This document shows positions 1 through 8,344 of a DNA stretch of 8,344 nucleotides, one piece after another. Source of the DNA: Dehalobacter sp. CP (GTDB lineage: Bacteria > Bacillota_B > Desulfitobacteriia > Desulfitobacteriales > Syntrophobotulaceae); assembly GCA_009910795.1 (NCBI GenBank), contig VMEE01000073.1, positions 1 through 8,344 of the forward strand, in the 5' to 3' direction. A model generated the notes under the pieces. The model had not been told where the DNA came from. It saw only the letters and a list, made by a program, of their open reading frames with translations, and did not search any database. The translations under genes and the position numbers were made by a program. Position 1 is the stretch's first letter. Each line of letters opens with the position of its first letter.

Positions 1-106
1 CCTATCCGAGCCGGCGATATTGCCAGGGATGCAACGTAGCAAATGCATTGTGGCATGGAGGAAGAGGGCGATTGAAACAATCTGAAACGTTGAAACATGC
101 GAAGGG
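1..106. other. Unassigned left edge
   Basis: No gene can be assigned here. Forward frame 3 is open from the edge to a TGA at 117-119, which lies inside the following inverted repeat. Forward frame 2 is open to a TGA at 83-85. On the minus strand an ATG at 48 opens a frame reading MHLLRCIPGNIAGSDR that leaves the window. Any of these could be the end or start of a neighbouring gene, and 100 bp is too little to choose. The stretch also holds three TGAAAC hexamers (73-78, 83-88, 91-96). Confidence 0.3.
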
Positions 107-158
107 AATAGTTCTATGACATTATCAAAAGGTTTAAGTAAAATGTCATAGAACTATT
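107..158. repeat. Perfect 17-bp inverted repeat around a TATA-like box
   Basis: The left arm AATAGTTCTATGACATT (107-123) and right arm AATGTCATAGAACTATT (142-158) are exact reverse complements separated by 18 bp. The spacer contains AAAAGGTTTAAGTA, which can be read as a purine-rich BRE followed by a TATA-like box at about 133-140. That would place transcription start near 160, upstream of the gene at 203. The arms would then be an operator bracketing the core promoter. The alternative is a long stem-loop or the trace of a small mobile element. The symmetry is directly visible; the regulatory role is inferred. Confidence 0.7.
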
Positions 159-180
159 TACTATGCACAAGACCGCCGCC

Positions 181-206
181 GGAGAGAGATGCACGAGCAG
201 CCATGA
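181..206 (+). promoter_or_regulatory. Shine-Dalgarno plus five-codon upstream ORF (MHEQP) overlapping the next start
   Basis: GGAG at 181-184 stands 4 nt before an ATG at 189, which opens a five-codon frame, M-H-E-Q-P, ending in TGA at 204-206. That stop overlaps the ATG at 203-205 as ATGA. The 203 start itself has no Shine-Dalgarno at normal spacing (GGAG is 18 nt away). Its translation could therefore depend on ribosomes finishing the mini-ORF. The arrangement is seen; the coupling is inferred, and it may be chance. Confidence 0.4.
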
Positions 207-598
207 AAGCGGCTGAGATCCTGCCAGATGCCAGGAGAGAGGCCCGTAGGATGGAAGGGCGGGCCGATGAGCTGAAGGCTGAGGCTGAGGCCCTCAAAGG
301 AGCTGCCAGGCTGGAAGATCTCACCCTCTGGCAGATGGAGAAGGCAAAGACCACCAAGAAAAGGAGCAAGACCTATCTTTACTGGATGGCCTCATGGAGA
401 GAAGGCGGGAAGGTCCGAAATGTGCACCTAGGGAGCTGCAGGAAGGTAGACCACGAGATAGCATTACAGAAGGCTAGGAAGATAAAGGCAGAGGCCCTTA
501 AGGGAGCTGCAGGAGGTGCACCTTCGCATCCTTCCGAATTACATGACCCGCATTCCGAACCTTCCAGATTAATCTATCAATCTACTGGCCAACCTTAG
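203..598 (+). CDS. Small basic protein of unknown function, methanogen-type
   Basis: This 131-aa protein is not assigned a function. The N-terminal half (about residues 1-35) is a charged, Ala/Glu/Lys/Arg-rich likely helix. The middle (about 50-90) reads KTYLYWMASWREGGKVRNVH and then LGSCRKVDHE. This Trp/Tyr-rich compact motif resembles short conserved proteins I associate with Methanothrix and relatives, some of which lie near recombinases; that is recollection, not a search. The element KAEALKGAA occurs twice (near residues 29 and 95), matching a 24-bp DNA direct repeat. The last ~30 residues are Pro/Ser/His-rich and look non-conserved, as if the end had been replaced. The start at 203 is the only ATG in frame after a TAG at 149-151. 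The stop is 5 bp from the convergent res stop, leaving no room for separate terminators. Confidence 0.7.
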   Translation: MKAAEILPDARREARRMEGRADELKAEAEALKGAARLEDLTLWQMEKAKTTKKRSKTYLYWMASWREGGKVRNVHLGSCRKVDHEIALQKARKIKAEALKGAAGGAPSHPSELHDPHSEPSRLIYQSTGQP

Positions 599-603
599 TG
601 AGC

Positions 604-3294
604 TCATATGTTCTCTTTGTACTCCCTGAAACCATCAACCAGTTGCCTAAATTTAGTGGGCTTGTATCTCTCAAAGCTCTCCTGATCGACATAAACAAAA
701 TCGAACGTTTTGTCGGTCTGCGCCCGGTTGATATCTTCGCACCATTGCCTTAGACGTTGCATCTTGAGCGGCACGTCCAGGTCTTCTTGTCCCTTCGTCT
801 CAACAATGAATGTTTCTCTGTCCGTCACTTTAACCACGAAGTCCGGGTAGTAGTTGGAGATATCCCCGTCTGCGTTCACGTAGTCCAGCTTAAAACCCAC
901 TGCTAGATAATTCTTGGAATAAGAGATTACATCGTCGCATCCTTCTAGGAAAGCGGCAAACAGCAGTTCTAAATGACTATCCCCAATAATGCGATTGAAT
1001 GGACTCTTTTTGGGGATAAGGTATTCCTGATCCTTAACCACAAATGGACGGGTCTGTCGCAGCTTGATGGTGTCCCGTATTTCGGCATCACCTTTATTTC
1101 GCACGGTAAGAGCATTGATAGCTCTCTTGAAAGACTCGATCACAGTTTTGGTGGCTTCCAATTCTGACAGATTACGCAGTGTGTTGGGACTTTCCAGATC
1201 TACCGGTCGGTCGAATAACTCATCCCTCACAAAGGTTTTGATCTTACCATAAAGCACATCATAACCACTGACTAATCTCAATTCTCTCATTATGGTCTGG
1301 GCAAAGTAGCCGATAACGCTATGGTAATCGGCAATCCCTGCTGTATCAAGGATGGTTGTGTGAGTTATTTCGCCCGTAGTGAGATCCTTGAAGACTATCT
1401 CACGCAGTTGTTCTTCAGTGAATGATAGGTATGGAATCTTTGCGCTACCCAGTGCAGCCACATTCAGATCAGCTAGGTTCTTATATTCCCGGTAGATGCG
1501 AGGTGTCAGAACGGGAATCTCGATATCCAGGGCATCGAGATCCTTCTTGACGTTCTCCTTGTCAACCTCTACCACCAATGGGGTCTTTGGCCCTGTGCCT
1601 TCGCCCATCGGTTTGCGTTCCAGCACTACACCTTCGGCCTGGATGGATTCCACAAAATCCATAAAGGCATTTGTGCCGATCACGCTGACATACTCCTCTA
1701 GGCCCCCTGGATACATCTTGCGCAGCCCTCGCCCAAGTGTCTGTTCCGGTAGGATGTTGCTCTTGGCCGAATAGGCACGCAGCCCTACGATGGTGGTGAC
1801 GTTGCGTACATCCCATCCTTCAGTGAGCATCATCACTGAAACTATGGCTTTGTAGGGGCTATCCCAGCTATCAATAGCATTCGCCTGCTGGCGCAATTTA
1901 TCCAGTTCTTCTTTGGCCTTGCCGGAGTTTGCTTCAGAAATCTCGCCATTGTTCTTGGTATGGATGACCAGAACTGCGCCCTGCAATTCGAGATAATTGC
2001 CTTCCAGGTAACTGGCAACGTCATCGCAGTTGCGGGTGTCATCGGTCATAACGAAGAGTATGGCCTTCTTACCCATCTTTTCATGCTCTTCATAGGCTTT
2101 GCGCCACTCGATCATTCCCAGGTGAAGGTAGTCGGCATATTTTTCGGTGAACTTGGCACTCTGGCGCTCCATCAGTTTTGCCCGGCTGGCGGCATCTGGC
2201 AGTACGGGGTGTTTGACGACATTCTGAGAGATGGCTTCAACCAATGGATAATCGGTTACGGTTTGCACGAAGATGGCCCCATTGCTGTGCTTTGGCGTTG
2301 CAGTCGTGTCTATTTGGAGAGAAAGGGCCGAGTCCTTTAGTTTAAGGCGATTATGAATGTCTTCGATGGATTTAAACCAGGCCATGCGCGGGTCGTGGAT
2401 GTGGTGTGCCTCGTCATCGAGGATCATCAGTTCATCGATATCACGCACAATCATACCCAGATCTACTTTGGAGTCGGTAGTGGCTCCCGTAGGTCGTTTG
2501 CCCAGGAAGTAGTCCATCGTATTTTCATCGTCACTAGATGCAGGGATGTCGTCGCCAGCATAGACGCGGTGGATATTGGTCAAAAAGATATTACCTGTAG
2601 GGCGAATGATATGCACTTCGTCTTGCATGTGCAGATTAAGTTGTTGAAAGTCATCATGCCAATTGCGGCCTCCAATACCATCATCAGGCAATACTGGATC
2701 TTCATAGAATATCTTCAGGCCCTGAAAATCCTTTTTAATGCGGTCCAGAACGATGATATTGGGAGTAATTACCAGAAAATTGCGAGATAACCCTGATTCA
2801 GGCTCATACAGCTTATGGAAGAAGCTCCAGGCCAACGCCAGGCTCAAAACCTTCGTCTTTCCAGATCCCGTTGCCATTTTGACAACGAAACGCCGCCAGG
2901 TTTCGTCGAACATGCTTGTGGTAACCGAACCGGAACTGTCGAAGCGCATCAGGTCGTATTTATCACGAACGGCTGCCACATCATAGAGGTAGATGATTGT
3001 CTCCACGGCCTCGCGTTGGGCAAAGAAGTACTGAAATTCGGCCATTGTGCCGTCTGCTTTGGGCAACAGGTGCGGGGTGTTGAACCACCAATTTAACAGG
3101 CTTTTGCTGGTGTCAGTTGCACCCGTATAGCCACTGTCGCGCCATATCTTTACTTTCTTGCGAAGATCTGACACTAATGGTGGCATGAGCTTGTCCATGC
3201 TAGTCTCACGCAAGGATTCATCGGCTGGGAACCAGCGAACTGCTGGATCAAGGATAGCATGTGGTGATCCGGGAAAGTTGGGATGGAGTGCCAT
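604..3294 (-). CDS. res: Type III restriction enzyme, Res subunit (ATP-dependent helicase/endonuclease)
   Basis: This 896-aa restriction subunit works only in complex with Mod, using ATP to communicate along DNA and cut unmethylated targets at a distance from the recognition site. Superfamily 2 helicase motifs appear in order: Walker A ATGSGKT (141-147), DEAH box ILDDEAHH (291-298), TTATP (330-334), TEGWD (491-495) and the arginine-finger motif QTLGRGLRK (518-526). The C-terminal nuclease is a PD-(D/E)xK domain: YPDF (Asp818), then VETKG (Glu832, Lys834), the usual type III arrangement. Length is slightly under the ~970 aa of EcoP1I/EcoP15I Res, and all key residues are present, so it should be active. 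The start ATG shares one base with the mod stop (TAATG). A GGAG in the end of mod (plus-strand 3305-3308) lies 10 nt upstream, so translation is probably coupled to mod. Confidence 0.97.
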   Translation of the reverse strand: MALHPNFPGSPHAILDPAVRWFPADESLRETSMDKLMPPLVSDLRKKVKIWRDSGYTGATDTSKSLLNWWFNTPHLLPKADGTMAEFQYFFAQREAVETIIYLYDVAAVRDKYDLMRFDSSGSVTTSMFDETWRRFVVKMATGSGKTKVLSLALAWSFFHKLYEPESGLSRNFLVITPNIIVLDRIKKDFQGLKIFYEDPVLPDDGIGGRNWHDDFQQLNLHMQDEVHIIRPTGNIFLTNIHRVYAGDDIPASSDDENTMDYFLGKRPTGATTDSKVDLGMIVRDIDELMILDDEAHHIHDPRMAWFKSIEDIHNRLKLKDSALSLQIDTTATPKHSNGAIFVQTVTDYPLVEAISQNVVKHPVLPDAASRAKLMERQSAKFTEKYADYLHLGMIEWRKAYEEHEKMGKKAILFVMTDDTRNCDDVASYLEGNYLELQGAVLVIHTKNNGEISEANSGKAKEELDKLRQQANAIDSWDSPYKAIVSVMMLTEGWDVRNVTTIVGLRAYSAKSNILPEQTLGRGLRKMYPGGLEEYVSVIGTNAFMDFVESIQAEGVVLERKPMGEGTGPKTPLVVEVDKENVKKDLDALDIEIPVLTPRIYREYKNLADLNVAALGSAKIPYLSFTEEQLREIVFKDLTTGEITHTTILDTAGIADYHSVIGYFAQTIMRELRLVSGYDVLYGKIKTFVRDELFDRPVDLESPNTLRNLSELEATKTVIESFKRAINALTVRNKGDAEIRDTIKLRQTRPFVVKDQEYLIPKKSPFNRIIGDSHLELLFAAFLEGCDDVISYSKNYLAVGFKLDYVNADGDISNYYPDFVVKVTDRETFIVETKGQEDLDVPLKMQRLRQWCEDINRAQTDKTFDFVYVDQESFERYKPTKFRQLVDGFREYKENI

Positions 3295-5564
3295 TATTTG
3301 TTCTCTCCTACGTTGATGTCGACAATAGTCATGGTGTCATTGCCGAAGATGTCCACCACCTTGACGGCAAGTTTTCGCCGTCCAGGTTTGCATTCGTGAA
3401 ATACGCTTGTCAGTTCCAGAGACCGATCTTTCTTGGTACGGAAGGATTGCCACTCGTTTTCGAAGATGTAGTCGCCAGTCCAGACTTCCTCATATTCGCC
3501 GCTATCTTCATTCCGCACACGCACTATCTCGCGCTTGCTCTCGAAGTTGAAGTCCACTGCCCAGTAATCAACCCAGTCAGTCCAGTGCTGAGTGAGTACT
3601 TCACGACTGACGATGCCGTCTTTATCCTTGCTCACTTTGACGATCCGGCCTTTCTCGACAACAATCTTGCTTGCTTTGTTCTTGAGCGCAGCTTCCGCAG
3701 CAGCAATCGAATCCTGTGAATAAAAGACAGAAAAGTCGGTCAGCTCCACAGCTACGCGGTTATTCTTGACTAGAGGTTTGACCTCTATCGCGGCCACGTC
3801 GTGGAAGACGACCTGGTTTTTTTCCACCGCACGTTTATCGAATACCTCTGCGGGAATGTACTTGGGAGCGATGTCGATCCCCTTCGTCCTAGCCTCATCC
3901 AGCACATTTGGAAATAGGCCCATCTCGAATTCGAATCCGAGGATGTCAACACGAGATATGTGCTTCTTCCGGCATTCCAAAATGACCTCCTCGACGAAGA
4001 GGCGTGTCACGGGCATGTTGATCGGTCCCACTGACACCAGTCTCCCAGCTCTCTTGCCGTGGAAAGTGGTGAAGCCCTCGGTCCTCTCCGCCCGATAGGC
4101 TCGCAGGATCAGGTCAACGAAAGCGGCTTCCTTCTCCTCAAGTTGCTTTTGCTGCTCGGCCTCACGCAAGTTGGGATTGACACCAATGTAGTGTTGGCGT
4201 TCGTACTTGCCCAAGTTGAGGATCTCAAAGGCTCGGTATCCCTTGCCCTCCACTTTTAGTTGGCGTTGCACGCCGATCATGCGCTTGCGAGTCGTATGGA
4301 TGGCAAATTTGCCAAGGTCGGCGACAATCCACTTGCGACCCAGCTTCTCAGCCGTGGCTGCGGTAGTACCGGATCCGCAGAAGAGATCGGCTACTAGGTC
4401 GTTCTCTTCGCTACTCGCAGTGATAATCCTCTCTAACAGACTTTCAGGTTTCTGGGTATCATATCCGGTGCGTTCTCTTGCCTGTGGTGAAATGGAAGGG
4501 ATGTCTGTCCATATGCTCCGTAAGTTCACTCCTGGCATTTCTGCCAGATACCGCTTCAACCCCGGTATGCCACCTTCTTTATCAGGCCAATATATCCTCC
4601 CTTCCTCATCCAACTTATCCAACTTCTCGACCGCATAAATCCAATGCTTTCCCCGTGCAGCTATATCAATACCTTTCCAAGGTAATCCAGAGCTGCCATT
4701 TCTTACTCCTGCTGCCGTAAGATCGCTAACTCTATACTCTCGGCCATCGGACTCTTTGTAACGATAGAATCCATTGATGTATTCTTCCGAATACTGCGTA
4801 TACTGCTTAGTCCATCTGTATATATTTGAACGGGTATAGAAGAAGACCATATCATGAACATGGCCGTAAGTTTTCGAATCACTATGTCCCGTTGTCCGTT
4901 GCCAGATAATTTCGTTCCTGAAGCTGTCCTTTCCGAACACTTCATCCAGAATTAACCGAATGTAGCTACTCACCCGCCAATCACAATGCACGTAGATGCT
5001 CCCATCCTCAGCAAGCAAATCCCGCATCAACATCAGCCGCTCGTAGATCATTGCGATGAAGGAGTCTGCTCCCTTCCCCCATGTATCACGGTAGGCGATC
5101 TCCTCCAGGATGTTGGGCTTCTTGGTGAATGTGTCGCCGCCGATCTCGATGTCCATCGAGAAATCTGCGCCAACGTCGAAGGGCGGATCAATGTAGATCA
5201 GTTTAATGCCGCCTTGCGCCTCTATCTCTTCACGGAGCGGGCCGTTCTTCAAACTTGATAGGATCAGCTTGTTGTCGCCCCATATCAACTTGTTAGTCCA
5301 GCCTTTGAGCTGGCGGCCGCGGTTGTCCAGGTCAAAGAGTGTCTTCTGGAAATTAGTGTCCTTCTCGGCTCGCGGCTCGTCCACTTGCTCGATCACCTGA
5401 AAAGGAAGCACGATGTTGCAGACTTCATTCGTCTTGCCGTTCCAAACCAGCTCTACCTCACGTTTATCCTCAAAAAGCAGAAAGCGATACTTGTCGGGCA
5501 GAGGCTTATCGGCTTCGATGTAGCGGATTATCTCTTGTTGTTCTTTTTCGGTCAGGCGTGACAT
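3294..5564 (-). CDS. mod: Type III DNA methyltransferase, Mod subunit (adenine-N6)
   Basis: This 756-aa protein recognises the short asymmetric target and transfers methyl from S-adenosylmethionine to an adenine; it also supplies specificity to Res. It is a beta-class enzyme: catalytic motif IV LIYIDPPF (122-129) precedes SAM-binding motif I ADLFCGSGTT (392-401). The motif GYDTQKPE (367-374) lies before motif I and KWIVADL (411-417) after it. The segment between motif IV and motif I, about 218-345, is the expected target-recognition domain. Residues ~470-756 form a long C-terminal part, longer than in EcoP15I Mod (~644 aa total), probably for Mod-Mod or Mod-Res contacts. The start at 5564 has a good Shine-Dalgarno, GAGGT (plus-strand 5569-5573), 4 nt upstream. 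No repeat tract suggesting phase variation is visible in the reading frame. It is first gene of a mod-res operon. Confidence 0.97.
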   Translation of the reverse strand: MSRLTEKEQQEIIRYIEADKPLPDKYRFLLFEDKREVELVWNGKTNEVCNIVLPFQVIEQVDEPRAEKDTNFQKTLFDLDNRGRQLKGWTNKLIWGDNKLILSSLKNGPLREEIEAQGGIKLIYIDPPFDVGADFSMDIEIGGDTFTKKPNILEEIAYRDTWGKGADSFIAMIYERLMLMRDLLAEDGSIYVHCDWRVSSYIRLILDEVFGKDSFRNEIIWQRTTGHSDSKTYGHVHDMVFFYTRSNIYRWTKQYTQYSEEYINGFYRYKESDGREYRVSDLTAAGVRNGSSGLPWKGIDIAARGKHWIYAVEKLDKLDEEGRIYWPDKEGGIPGLKRYLAEMPGVNLRSIWTDIPSISPQARERTGYDTQKPESLLERIITASSEENDLVADLFCGSGTTAATAEKLGRKWIVADLGKFAIHTTRKRMIGVQRQLKVEGKGYRAFEILNLGKYERQHYIGVNPNLREAEQQKQLEEKEAAFVDLILRAYRAERTEGFTTFHGKRAGRLVSVGPINMPVTRLFVEEVILECRKKHISRVDILGFEFEMGLFPNVLDEARTKGIDIAPKYIPAEVFDKRAVEKNQVVFHDVAAIEVKPLVKNNRVAVELTDFSVFYSQDSIAAAEAALKNKASKIVVEKGRIVKVSKDKDGIVSREVLTQHWTDWVDYWAVDFNFESKREIVRVRNEDSGEYEEVWTGDYIFENEWQSFRTKKDRSLELTSVFHECKPGRRKLAVKVVDIFGNDTMTIVDINVGENK

Positions 5565-5869: not shown

Positions 5870-6100
5870 TTATTCACCCACACAGAACGTCGCAGGCCAC
5901 AGCTTCGCCTCGCTCTCCTCCGGCCAGATGTTCCCCTCATTGGGCAAGCTCCTCTCTTCAAGCCTCCTCTGGATCATATCCTCTATGTCTGCAGGCCGGG
6001 TATGGAAGACCTCTGCCAGAATCTCCTTGGCCGTCTCGAGCTCCAGGACCTTGGGATTGACTGCCCTCCTGGGCTCAATGAGCCGCTTCCAGAGACTCAT
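5870..6100 (-). CDS. Conserved-looking 76-aa protein of unknown function
   Basis: The protein begins MSLWKRLIEPRRAVNPKVLE and carries a likely helical pair, TAKEILAEVFHTRPADIEDM followed by IQRRLEER (about residues 23-50). A Trp-containing tail ends in LWPATFCVGE. No catalytic motif, signal peptide or membrane segment is visible. The pattern of helices suggests a small interaction domain; I do not recognise the family with certainty, though the text resembles conserved small methanogen proteins. The start is supported by an ATGA overlap with the 170-aa gene upstream and by GGAGG (plus-strand 6108-6112) 7 nt before the ATG. It is the middle gene of a three-gene minus-strand operon. The frame overlapping it in 5674-5961 has an Arg-rich antisense-like N-terminus and is not preferred. 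Confidence 0.72.
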   Translation of the reverse strand: MSLWKRLIEPRRAVNPKVLELETAKEILAEVFHTRPADIEDMIQRRLEERSLPNEGNIWPEESEAKLWPATFCVGE

Positions 6101-7499: not shown

Positions 7500-7865
7500 T
7501 GGAACTTGTTAGTCCTATCAAACCTATTGTTCCTTTTGTCCCAATTATTTGCTTAGATTCTCGCCGATCACCCCCGCTCTTGGTTCGGCATTTGGGCAGG
7601 ATCAGTCACTGATGTCCTCTTCGGAGGACGCTGTGGTCGGTATTGATTCCGCTAAGACTCGATTGCTGTACGCAGCCCTCAATGAGTCTTGATGAGATGA
7701 TTCAGGTCATATGCAAAACAGGCTACGAGGTCAGAAGTTTGACGAATCTGGAGCGTGGATAATCTGTTGCTCCGGATTCACCGGACATTTTCATGGTATT
7801 TCGTAACTGCATGTATCCTATTATCATTATTCTTCGTCCATCGTTAAATACTTTTTACCCATGAT
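7500..7865. other. Decayed DNA with transposase-like fragments
   Basis: No intact gene is present. On the minus strand (about 7560-7815) a frame reads VACFAYDLNHLIKTH, stop, GLRTAIES, stop, then a basic tail ending MPNQERG and TGA. The Cys/Ala/Tyr/Leu/Asn string resembles the last helix of IS5/IS1182-type DDE transposases. On the plus strand, frames 7612-7692 (MSSSEDAVVGIDSAKT, then to LNES) and 7682-7762 (MSLDEMIQVICKTGYEVRSL) could instead be a frameshifted gene. The strand cannot be settled by eye. Either way it is a remnant lying between the orphan gene and the IS256-type fragment. Confidence 0.35.
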
Positions 7866-8069
7866 CTACTCTTCATTTTTATTTATCATGATGCATCCTG
7901 CTAATCTCATCAGGGATTGATCACTCGGGAATGCTCCCACAGGGCTGCTTCTGCGCTTCAATCCCTTATTGATGCGCTCAATGATGTTTTGTGATTCGTA
8001 TCTTCTTCCAATGCGCCTTTGGGAATGCCAGTTATTCCACAAATCGAATCTGAGAAGAGTTTGCCAGAA
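7866..8069 (-). pseudogene. IS256/Mutator-family transposase remnant (C-terminal end)
   Basis: The frame ends at TAG 7866-7868 and reads RRYESQNIIERINKGLKRRS, then SPVGAFPSDQSLMRLAG and CIMINKNEE. This matches the family signature of IS256-type transposases (PF00872): TTNxxERLNxEIKRRTRVVGxFPNxxSxLRLxxAVL. That element is the conserved C-terminal end after the third catalytic residue. About 67 codons remain; an in-frame TGA stands at 8070-8072 and upstream text (toward the heptad array) no longer looks like the family. The DDE catalytic core is missing, so it cannot transpose by itself. It marks a past insertion cut off at the border with the parA region. Confidence 0.78.
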
Positions 8070-8114: not shown

Positions 8115-8178
8115 CCTTAAGCATTAAGGCTTAATCCTTAATGGATATCCTCTTAAGTCTTAAGGCGTAATTCTTAAT
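8115..8178. promoter_or_regulatory. Heptad-repeat operator/centromere array before parA
   Basis: Eight 7-bp units lie end to end: CCTTAAG CATTAAG GCTTAAT, then CCTTAAT (8115-8142); then palindromic GGATATCC (8143-8150); then TCTTAAG TCTTAAG, GCGTAAT, TCTTAAT (8151-8178). Each half is 28 bp and the two halves agree at 23 of 28 positions, as direct repeats. The array ends 2 bp before the parA start. Contiguous 7-bp repeats before a parA are the known operator and centromere design of ribbon-helix-helix partition repressors such as omega of pSM19035. It would therefore be expected to bind a small CopG/omega-like protein, to repress parA and perhaps act as parS. The periodicity is seen; the binding protein is inferred and lies outside the window. 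Confidence 0.75.
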
Positions 8179-8180
8179 GC

Positions 8181-8344
8181 ATGGAAGTAGTAGCAATAGC
8201 AAACCAGAAAGGGGGCTGTGGCAAAACTACCACCGCCGTCAATCTATCGGCCTGCCTTGCTGCCAAAGGGAAGAAGGTCTTGCTAATAGACCTAGATCCT
8301 CAGGGATCGGCTACAACTCACCTGGCAATCAGTGAGTTCGATAA
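8181..8344 (+). CDS. parA: ParA-family partition ATPase, N-terminal part (runs off window)
   Basis: The 54 residues present start [20 protein letters not shown], the deviant Walker A of ParA/Soj/MinD ATPases with signature Lys10 and Lys15. The Walker A' element [10 protein letters not shown] (33-42) follows, then SATTHLAI. ParA proteins bind DNA non-specifically as ATP dimers and move plasmid or chromosome cargo held by a centromere-binding protein. The start is short, without an N-terminal HTH, as in the small type Ib ParA group, which usually pairs with a small RHH-type ParB; this agrees with the heptad array upstream. ATG 8181 is the only start, since a TAA lies in frame at 8175-8177. There is no Shine-Dalgarno, so translation is probably leaderless. 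The rest of the gene and its partner lie to the right. Confidence 0.93.

Follow-up and report, generated by a model that had tools for sequence, protein, structure and literature searches.

What does a run of 7-bp repeats do immediately in front of a parA gene? The question is raised by the window, that is, the whole stretch of 8,344 nucleotides analysed here, in which positions 8115-8178 (64 bp) consist of four 7-bp units, the 8-bp palindrome GGATATCC and four further 7-bp units, followed by GC and then the ATG (Table 1). The original prediction read this as an archaeal partition operator and centromere with a new heptad and a ribbon-helix-helix (RHH) partner. On recheck its coordinates, letters, palindrome, match between the halves (23/28 as direct repeats, only 8/28 as reverse complements) and 2-bp gap to the ATG at 8181 were all exact. 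Its description of eight units built on TTAA holds for seven of them but not for the seventh, GCGTAAT, so that the pattern is NNTTAAN with one NNGTAAN. The interruption by GGATATCC leads to a 15-bp step between the flanking TTAA cores, and the downstream half contains the 13-bp sequence CTTAAG-T-CTTAAG.

The array stands out from the DNA around it. Four copies of one 4-mer spaced at period 7 occur just once in the 8344 bp, and both halves were called by TRF as period-7 arrays, each at the low score of 33. Seven of the eight slots of the 4-8-4 template are filled in the window, vs at most four of eight in 120 simulated windows, and TTAA(N3)TTAA(N3)TTAA gave two hits as against none in 200 dinucleotide shuffles. 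We also applied a motif-free test, in which 3-mer self-matches at each lag were compared with dinucleotide shuffles over the last 120 bp before segA; for the window the z-scores were 8.3, 5.8 and 5.0 at lags 7, 14 and 21.

Table 1. Features of the window, and letters read upstream of segA in the window and related cassettes
Feature	Position	Strand	Remarks
Res-like gene	604-3294	-	ResIII E 1e-13
Mod-like gene	3294-5564	-	N6_N4_Mtase E 3.6e-40
Upstream half-array	8115..8142	+	CCTTAAG CATTAAG GCTTAAT CCTTAAT; TRF; L113 identical at 24/28
8-bp palindrome GGATATCC	8143..8150	.	-38 to -31 from ATG; L113 identical 8/8
Downstream half-array	8151..8178	+	TCTTAAG TCTTAAG GCGTAAT TCTTAAT; L113 identical at 27/28
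parA/segA 5' end	8181..8342	+	54 codons, runs off the window; Pfam AAA_31 E 2.4e-22
Letters TTAAG (by eye)			window, L113, L096, L093, L091, L092
Letters CTAAAG/CTTTAG (by eye)			L150
Letters GAGTC (by eye)			L081, L087, L088, L097, L114
Letters TAGAGTC (by eye)			L089, L090
Letters GTACGAAG-like (by eye)			L098, L099
Letters AGTGATAAG (by eye)			L174, L177
Letters AACTTAT (by eye)			second phylum
Letters ACTTATC (by eye)			L185, upstream only

The nearest relative is L113, a contig from a viral collection that is 95.6% identical in DNA to the window from 8117 onward. When the two are aligned from the ATG, the array agrees at 59 of 64 positions and the coding sequence at 157 of 164, vs 54 of 234 (chance level) in the DNA preceding the array; conservation thus begins with the array. 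This bears on the very unlikely alternative that the repeats are something else altogether: iterons of a replication origin, satellite DNA or the site of some unrelated repressor. Partition loci often adjoin replication origins, a point in favor of iterons or another element of that kind. Nevertheless, the array is conserved along with segA and the preceding DNA is not, and from cassette to cassette the letters upstream of segA tend to agree with the boxes found within the adjoining segB (see below).

The window ends inside segA, and what lies beyond has to be read from its relatives. In L113 the operon is complete: parA encodes 251 aa, and a 127-aa gene overlaps it by 16 bp. In L096 the two genes overlap as well, by 4 bp. 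The window fragment, a ParA-type ATPase by its AAA_31 match (Table 1), is identical to each of these two proteins at 52 of 54 residues. Among the 80 best genome loci its closest match is a Methanothrix MAG (77%), and the cassette probably derives from a Methanothrix relative or from a mobile element of one. The exact 4-8-4 layout of the window does not extend to relatives at large; of the loci compared, L113 alone shares it and L093 does so in part, where TTAA cores at -64, -57, -50, -43 and -28 fall at the same places as in the window.

Several observations concern the setting of the window and of L113. At positions 7798-8053 the window matches part of the Methanothrix MAG genome with 82% identity, and at 7866-8042 (-) this segment includes a C-terminal piece of a transposase of the Mutator family; an insertion-sequence remnant thus seems to have taken the place of the DNA in front of the array. 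Further upstream, 604-5564 (-) holds a type III restriction-modification pair (Table 1). The small ORF at 5870-6100 (-) has look-alikes, judged by eye, near segAB at L001 5605-5925 (-) and L113 6344-6640 (-), and is a possible conserved neighbor of segAB. The contig of L113, the nearest segAB relative, is virus-like: its positions 41-703 (+) resemble terminase large subunits (phrog_2, E 2e-5; phrog_5909, E 2e-4), the best match being phrog_27743 (function not known; E 6e-30). A 4+2 TTAA pattern matched seven viral contigs, and in the DNA searched a ParA relative (E 1e-5) was found on the L113 contig only. Searched against a plasmid collection, the window gave two short hits, neither extending beyond the parA region, and ParA gave bacterial ParA among the matches listed (10 of at least 5000, and 25 of 26 in a second search). 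The phage collection gave no match.

A SegA relative (E 1e-30) was present in 10 of 50 genomes from the order of the Methanothrix MAG. In one of them (G035) the sole place, L095, is a bacterial-type ParA/ParB pair, which leaves SegAB-type cassettes in 9 of the 50. With E 1e-6 as threshold, a SegB match turned up in 13 of the 392 genomes sampled from the phylum that includes the Methanothrix MAG (the first phylum), and in 135 of the 151 genomes from the phylum to which a Methanobacteriaceae MAG belongs (the second phylum). The cassettes are consequently patchy in the former, as would fit a mobile or accessory system, and close to universal in the latter. Our first set of SegB cassettes (n=19) comprised 13 of the 14 places found by the SegA search (L095 was kept out and served as control), L174, L177 and L185 from the 17 places of the SegB search, and the viral L113, L150 and L114. 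The SegB places L171, L172, L173, L179, L184 and L186 coincided with loci already obtained, and L175, L176, L178, L180-L183 and L187 were left unused since none of them had, next to it, a segA parsed in full together with its upstream DNA. From the second phylum we took the 30 best-scoring loci, many of them close kin; 27 were parsed (L199, L204 and L223 were lost) and 26 had usable upstream DNA, L218 having too little. In L176, L178 and L182 the ORF preceding a SegB-like gene is ATPase-like but by eye unlike ParA, and SegB may thus occur without an adjoining SegA.

The original prediction hinged on a small DNA-binding gene beside parA. In the relatives a small gene follows segA in all 19 first-set cassettes; it overlaps segA by 1-16 bp in 18 of them (L174 and L177 included) and starts 31 bp downstream in L185. 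A profile of 13 partners matched the solved SegB structures (7duv, 7dv2) with its later part at E 8e-13. Taken as a single sequence, the L113 partner matched SegB at E 1e-4 over residues 70-118, and this was its sole PDB match up to E 10. Against Pfam and NCBIfam no family scored above cut-off for the partner gene, and the L113 partner matched none up to E 1. AF2 modelled L113 SegB poorly (mean pLDDT 55) and Foldseek returned no structural match at E 0.001, so that the case for its RHH fold comes from sequence homology. By that homology the cassette is a member of the archaeal SegAB family; judged by sequence, the window array belongs to a SegAB-type cassette whose predicted SegB partner is known from the genes of its relatives. 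The prediction of an RHH partner is borne out to this extent, but the partner belongs to a known family and is not an orphan look-alike of omega. At L092 2250-2711 (+) the segB frame stops early within the repeats, and the next ORF, in another frame, carries the same repeats and RHH-like domains; the SegB-like partners at L091 524-1492 (-) and L094 2243-3067 (+) have, by eye, two RHH-like domains each.

The cited sections on SegAB describe a segA that overlaps segB and a SegB that binds sites at the segA start (PMC12284271; PMC5120986). The cassettes resemble those of Saccharolobus and Sulfolobus in their ParA-type SegA, overlapping segB, SegB homology and sites at the start of segA. The published site, TCTAGA-S-TCTAGA, consists of two palindromic hexamers spaced by 7 bp, as does CTTAAG-T-CTTAAG; the window thus holds at the segA start a site of SegAB form together with six further units, and binding by SegB is predicted. 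The Sulfolobales letters themselves, typical but not defining as far as that account goes, are missing from the window, which has CTTAAG instead. In two relatives (L089, L090) the DNA before segA contains TCTAGACTCTAGA, the exact S. solfataricus consensus TCTAGA-C-TCTAGA given in the same text (PMC12284271), which also expects the SegB motifs of Euryarchaeota to be more degenerate.

Is the 7-bp register a property of the window or of the family? In the first set the mean z upstream of segA was 4.5, 3.5 and 2.2 at lags 7, 14 and 21; it lay between -0.6 and 0.8 at the remaining lags from 4 to 23, and segA coding DNA gave -0.3, 0.1 and 0.4 at the same three lags. The best upstream lag was 7, 14 or 21 in 17 of 19 cassettes, the exceptions being L114 and L094, and the signal of L185 was weak (z 1.9). 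In the second phylum (n=26) the corresponding means were 3.7, 4.5 and 1.7, the best lag being 7 or 14 in 21 cassettes and a different one in five. The original prediction had staked itself on homologous parA loci sharing this periodicity, and the register is present in them. Its claim of a new heptad calls for correction: the letters of the window are one among several variants in related cassettes (Table 1), of which L094 was assigned to none.

In the first set the register also continues into segB. In the front half of this gene z at lag 7 was at least 3.0 in 12 of 19 first-set cassettes, with means of 4.8, 3.9 and 5.5 at lags 7, 14 and 21. It could be argued that the boxes within the gene are a by-product of peptide repeats in SegB, structural or linker, and not a DNA signal. 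However, neither lag 7 nor lag 14 is divisible by three, and peptide repeats therefore do not explain the periodicity. We asked how much of each segB front is covered by 7-mers from the 200 bp upstream of its own segA. Coverage exceeded a synonymous-codon null, drawn from the codon pool of the cassette itself, in 14 of 19 cassettes at p 0.05, and a null of codon permutation within the region in 12 of 19. The pool null was not exceeded in L093, L114, L177, L185 and L094; for the permutation null, L113 (p 0.08) and L098 (p 0.06) also fell short. Moreover, among 14 dereplicated cassettes (L081, L087, L099, L096 and L092 left out; for L177 the pool was its own segB only) the mean z was 3.09 with the cassette's own upstream DNA vs 0.49 with the upstream DNA of the others (permutation p 5e-5), and the own upstream ranked first in 8 of 14. 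The lag tests in both phyla, the 7-mer test and this covariation test involve no chosen motif.

Boxes and codons were also counted directly, with motifs picked after inspection of the sequences and with L177 and L185 outside the test. In seven loci each segB front half holds 5-26 GAGTC/GACTC boxes, vs 0-1 in segA; the boxes occupy three codon frames in six of the loci and two in L090, and exceed synonymous nulls in all seven (p ≤0.005), which argues against a peptide origin. L098 and L099 have two boxes in segA as well, vs four and three in segB. In L113 and L096 the step in segB is 15 bp, or five codons, and lag alone cannot decide there between DNA and peptide. Codon choice is more telling: leucine in the L113 segB front is TTA in 6 of 6 cases vs 6 of 38 elsewhere, with seven boxes where synonymous sequences have a mean of 0.8 and a maximum of 4, and in L096 it is TTA in 4 of 5 vs 2 of 37. 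The codon evidence is weak in L093 (TTA 1/2 vs 5/38; one box, p 0.12) and L150 (6/10 vs 14/51, p 0.066), neither reaching 0.05, and this leaves some room for peptide repeats. So do the homologues of L113 SegB, of which the best 120 of 258 were considered: in 119 of these the length before [VI]W[SD]P is 56, 61, 66, 71, 76, 81 or 86 residues, that is, it varies in fixed 5-residue steps, although these may come partly from alternative start sites five codons apart.

Two further points count on the side of peptide repeats. The repeats of 14 residues reported for Metallosphaera SegB are interpreted as a beta-helix in the published account (PMC12284271), and TTAAG series at 15-bp spacing are not rare in viral contigs, where at least 120 stretches were found. 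On balance we consider a peptide by-product improbable. The 15-bp TTAAG series had itself been tried as a signature and was rejected as unspecific; some of the viral series of four TTAAG at this spacing (L287-L366 among the matches listed) are long. As for Metallosphaera, 14 residues equal 42 bp, or six times seven, and its repeats may represent the same in-gene box phenomenon.

Inside segB the second phylum gave another result. All 27 of its parsed cassettes had a codon multiple as the best lag of the segB front, and 24 had no AACTTA/TAAGTT box in segB, one had a single box and two had 2 each. The in-gene array is accordingly a feature of most first-set cassettes and not of SegAB as a whole. 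We lean modestly towards the following reading of Methanothrix-type SegAB: the centromere would lie largely inside the coding sequence of its own binder, the disordered front of SegB serving mainly to carry boxes across codon frames. Upstream and in-gene letters would shift together with SegB specificity, each cassette would possess a private, self-contained centromere, and boxes would be gained and lost in fixed steps. A different pattern was seen in L115, L116, L118 and L120, where a bacterial-looking ParA is followed by a different small partner whose front half is periodic in multiples of 4 bp (lags 8, 12, 16, 20 and 24; z 10.7 at lag 8 in L116), with no matching lag-8 series upstream. This partner gene perhaps holds an in-gene site array of another register.

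Where the boxes lie in the genome bears on what the upstream array is for. The GASTC triple heptad GASTCNNGASTCNNGASTC had 37 matches in five genomes (G001, G023, G036, G002 and G019; ~14 Mb): 27 inside segB and 8 at most 200 bp upstream of segA, together 35 of 37. The reversed control gave no match in the same genomes, and the L114 contig had no GASTC triple heptad. The other two matches lie ~2.1 kb upstream of segA in G023 (L111 711-736, G023:C17), in an isolated array resembling the upstream array of G001. An exact TTAA triplet was searched in ten genomes or records. At segA it occurred with four forward hits in the L113 contig (all its hits) and two each in G018 and G045; away from segA, G004 had two occurrences and G001, G019 and G040 one apiece; and it was absent from G002 and from the L150 and L114 contigs. 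As the control pattern also matched in G001, G019 and G040, confinement is weaker for TTAA than for GASTC.

With 27 of 37 triple heptads inside segB, the upstream array could be just an operator for autorepression, the centromere being the in-gene array or sites scattered over the chromosome. The place of the array fits this as well, since it occupies the expected position of the promoter and covers the interval of about -30 to -34 in which several relatives, by a crude score, have TATA-like boxes. We regard this as possible but rather doubtful; it overlaps with the reading of the array as operator and centromere, and the two are not exclusive. Published SegB sites upstream of segA have already been deemed possible centromere analogues in the account cited (PMC5120986), and the parS arrays of pSM19035, according to the sections cited, overlap promoters and yet also serve as centromeres (PMC9499535).

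Backed by the operon of the relatives, the SegB homology and the 7-bp register, we consider the array very probably to be the operator and centromere of a SegAB-type archaeal partition cassette, and the original prediction thus stands as the best reading. From the array, the relatives' operon, the SegB homology, the conserved periodicity and the covariation of upstream and in-gene boxes we infer SegB binding, one dimer per heptad, repression and partition. Each 7-bp unit would be the footprint of one SegB RHH dimer, and on the four contiguous units either side of the interruption SegB would line up into a short helical filament covering the core promoter, of which the 8-bp palindrome is possibly a part. 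TATA-like boxes, by a crude score, lie ~-30 to -34 before the ATG in L081, L088, L114, L089 and L098 and suggest leaderless transcription; the equivalent interval of the window consists of GGATATCC and the first downstream units. It is plausible that the array buries the segA promoter. The interruption would accommodate the core promoter of a leaderless or near-leaderless segA beneath the filament, and SegB bound on both sides would repress segAB while building the partition complex, which in turn would activate and track the SegA ATPase on the nucleoid. In L113 and L096, where the same boxes run on inside segB, a private centromere would lie both before segA and within segB.

Parallels exist in two plasmid systems, as far as the cited texts describe them. 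The omega/parS system of pSM19035 likewise has an RHH protein and unspaced 7-bp repeats over promoters; one dimer binds per heptad, at least four contiguous heptads are needed for full activation of ParA, and two three-heptad runs with a gap did not activate it fully (PMC9499535). Each half of the window array has four contiguous heptads and so reaches this minimum. However, the pSM19035 heptad is WATCACW, unlike the units of the window, its partner is omega whereas the L113 partner matches SegB, and the portion of the source cited mentions no in-gene arrays (PMC9499535). The AspA-ParB-ParA system of the Sulfolobus plasmid pNOB8 shares archaeal partition and a helical protein-DNA assembly, but as described it has the order aspA-parB-parA, a winged-HTH protein and a 23-bp palindrome (PMC5120986); in all 19 first-set cassettes, by position and by eye, parA comes first and the small SegB-like gene follows. 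A helical complex of SegB with S1 DNA from earlier work is mentioned in the part of PMC11381335 cited here.

As to novelty, SegAB, its upstream sites and sites within genes, including segAB of S. acidocaldarius, were already known (PMC12284271, sections cited). Compared with what is described for Sulfolobus SegAB, the contiguous heptad arrays of the cassettes studied here are longer, and the exact triple heptads of the five relatives' genomes lie mostly inside segB, whereas Sulfolobales sites, besides clustering around segAB, occur dispersed along the chromosome. In the literature searched we found neither the heptad array form, nor the letter classes, nor a dense in-gene array covarying with the upstream one; we make no claim of their absence from print. 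Among the papers listed on parS inside coding sequence we found nothing on point; 'intragenic parS' appears there for P. aeruginosa.

In conclusion, an isolated repeat is now tied to an archaeal chromosome-segregation family, and the 7-bp register before segA spans cassettes of two archaeal phyla. Because many cassettes show their site several times, SegB specificity becomes directly testable, and the puzzling repeats of large SegB proteins can be read in another way. Should the in-gene boxes prove functional, segregation DNA would dictate part of the amino-acid sequence of a segregation protein, and a cis-acting site lying within the gene of the protein that reads it would be out of the ordinary.
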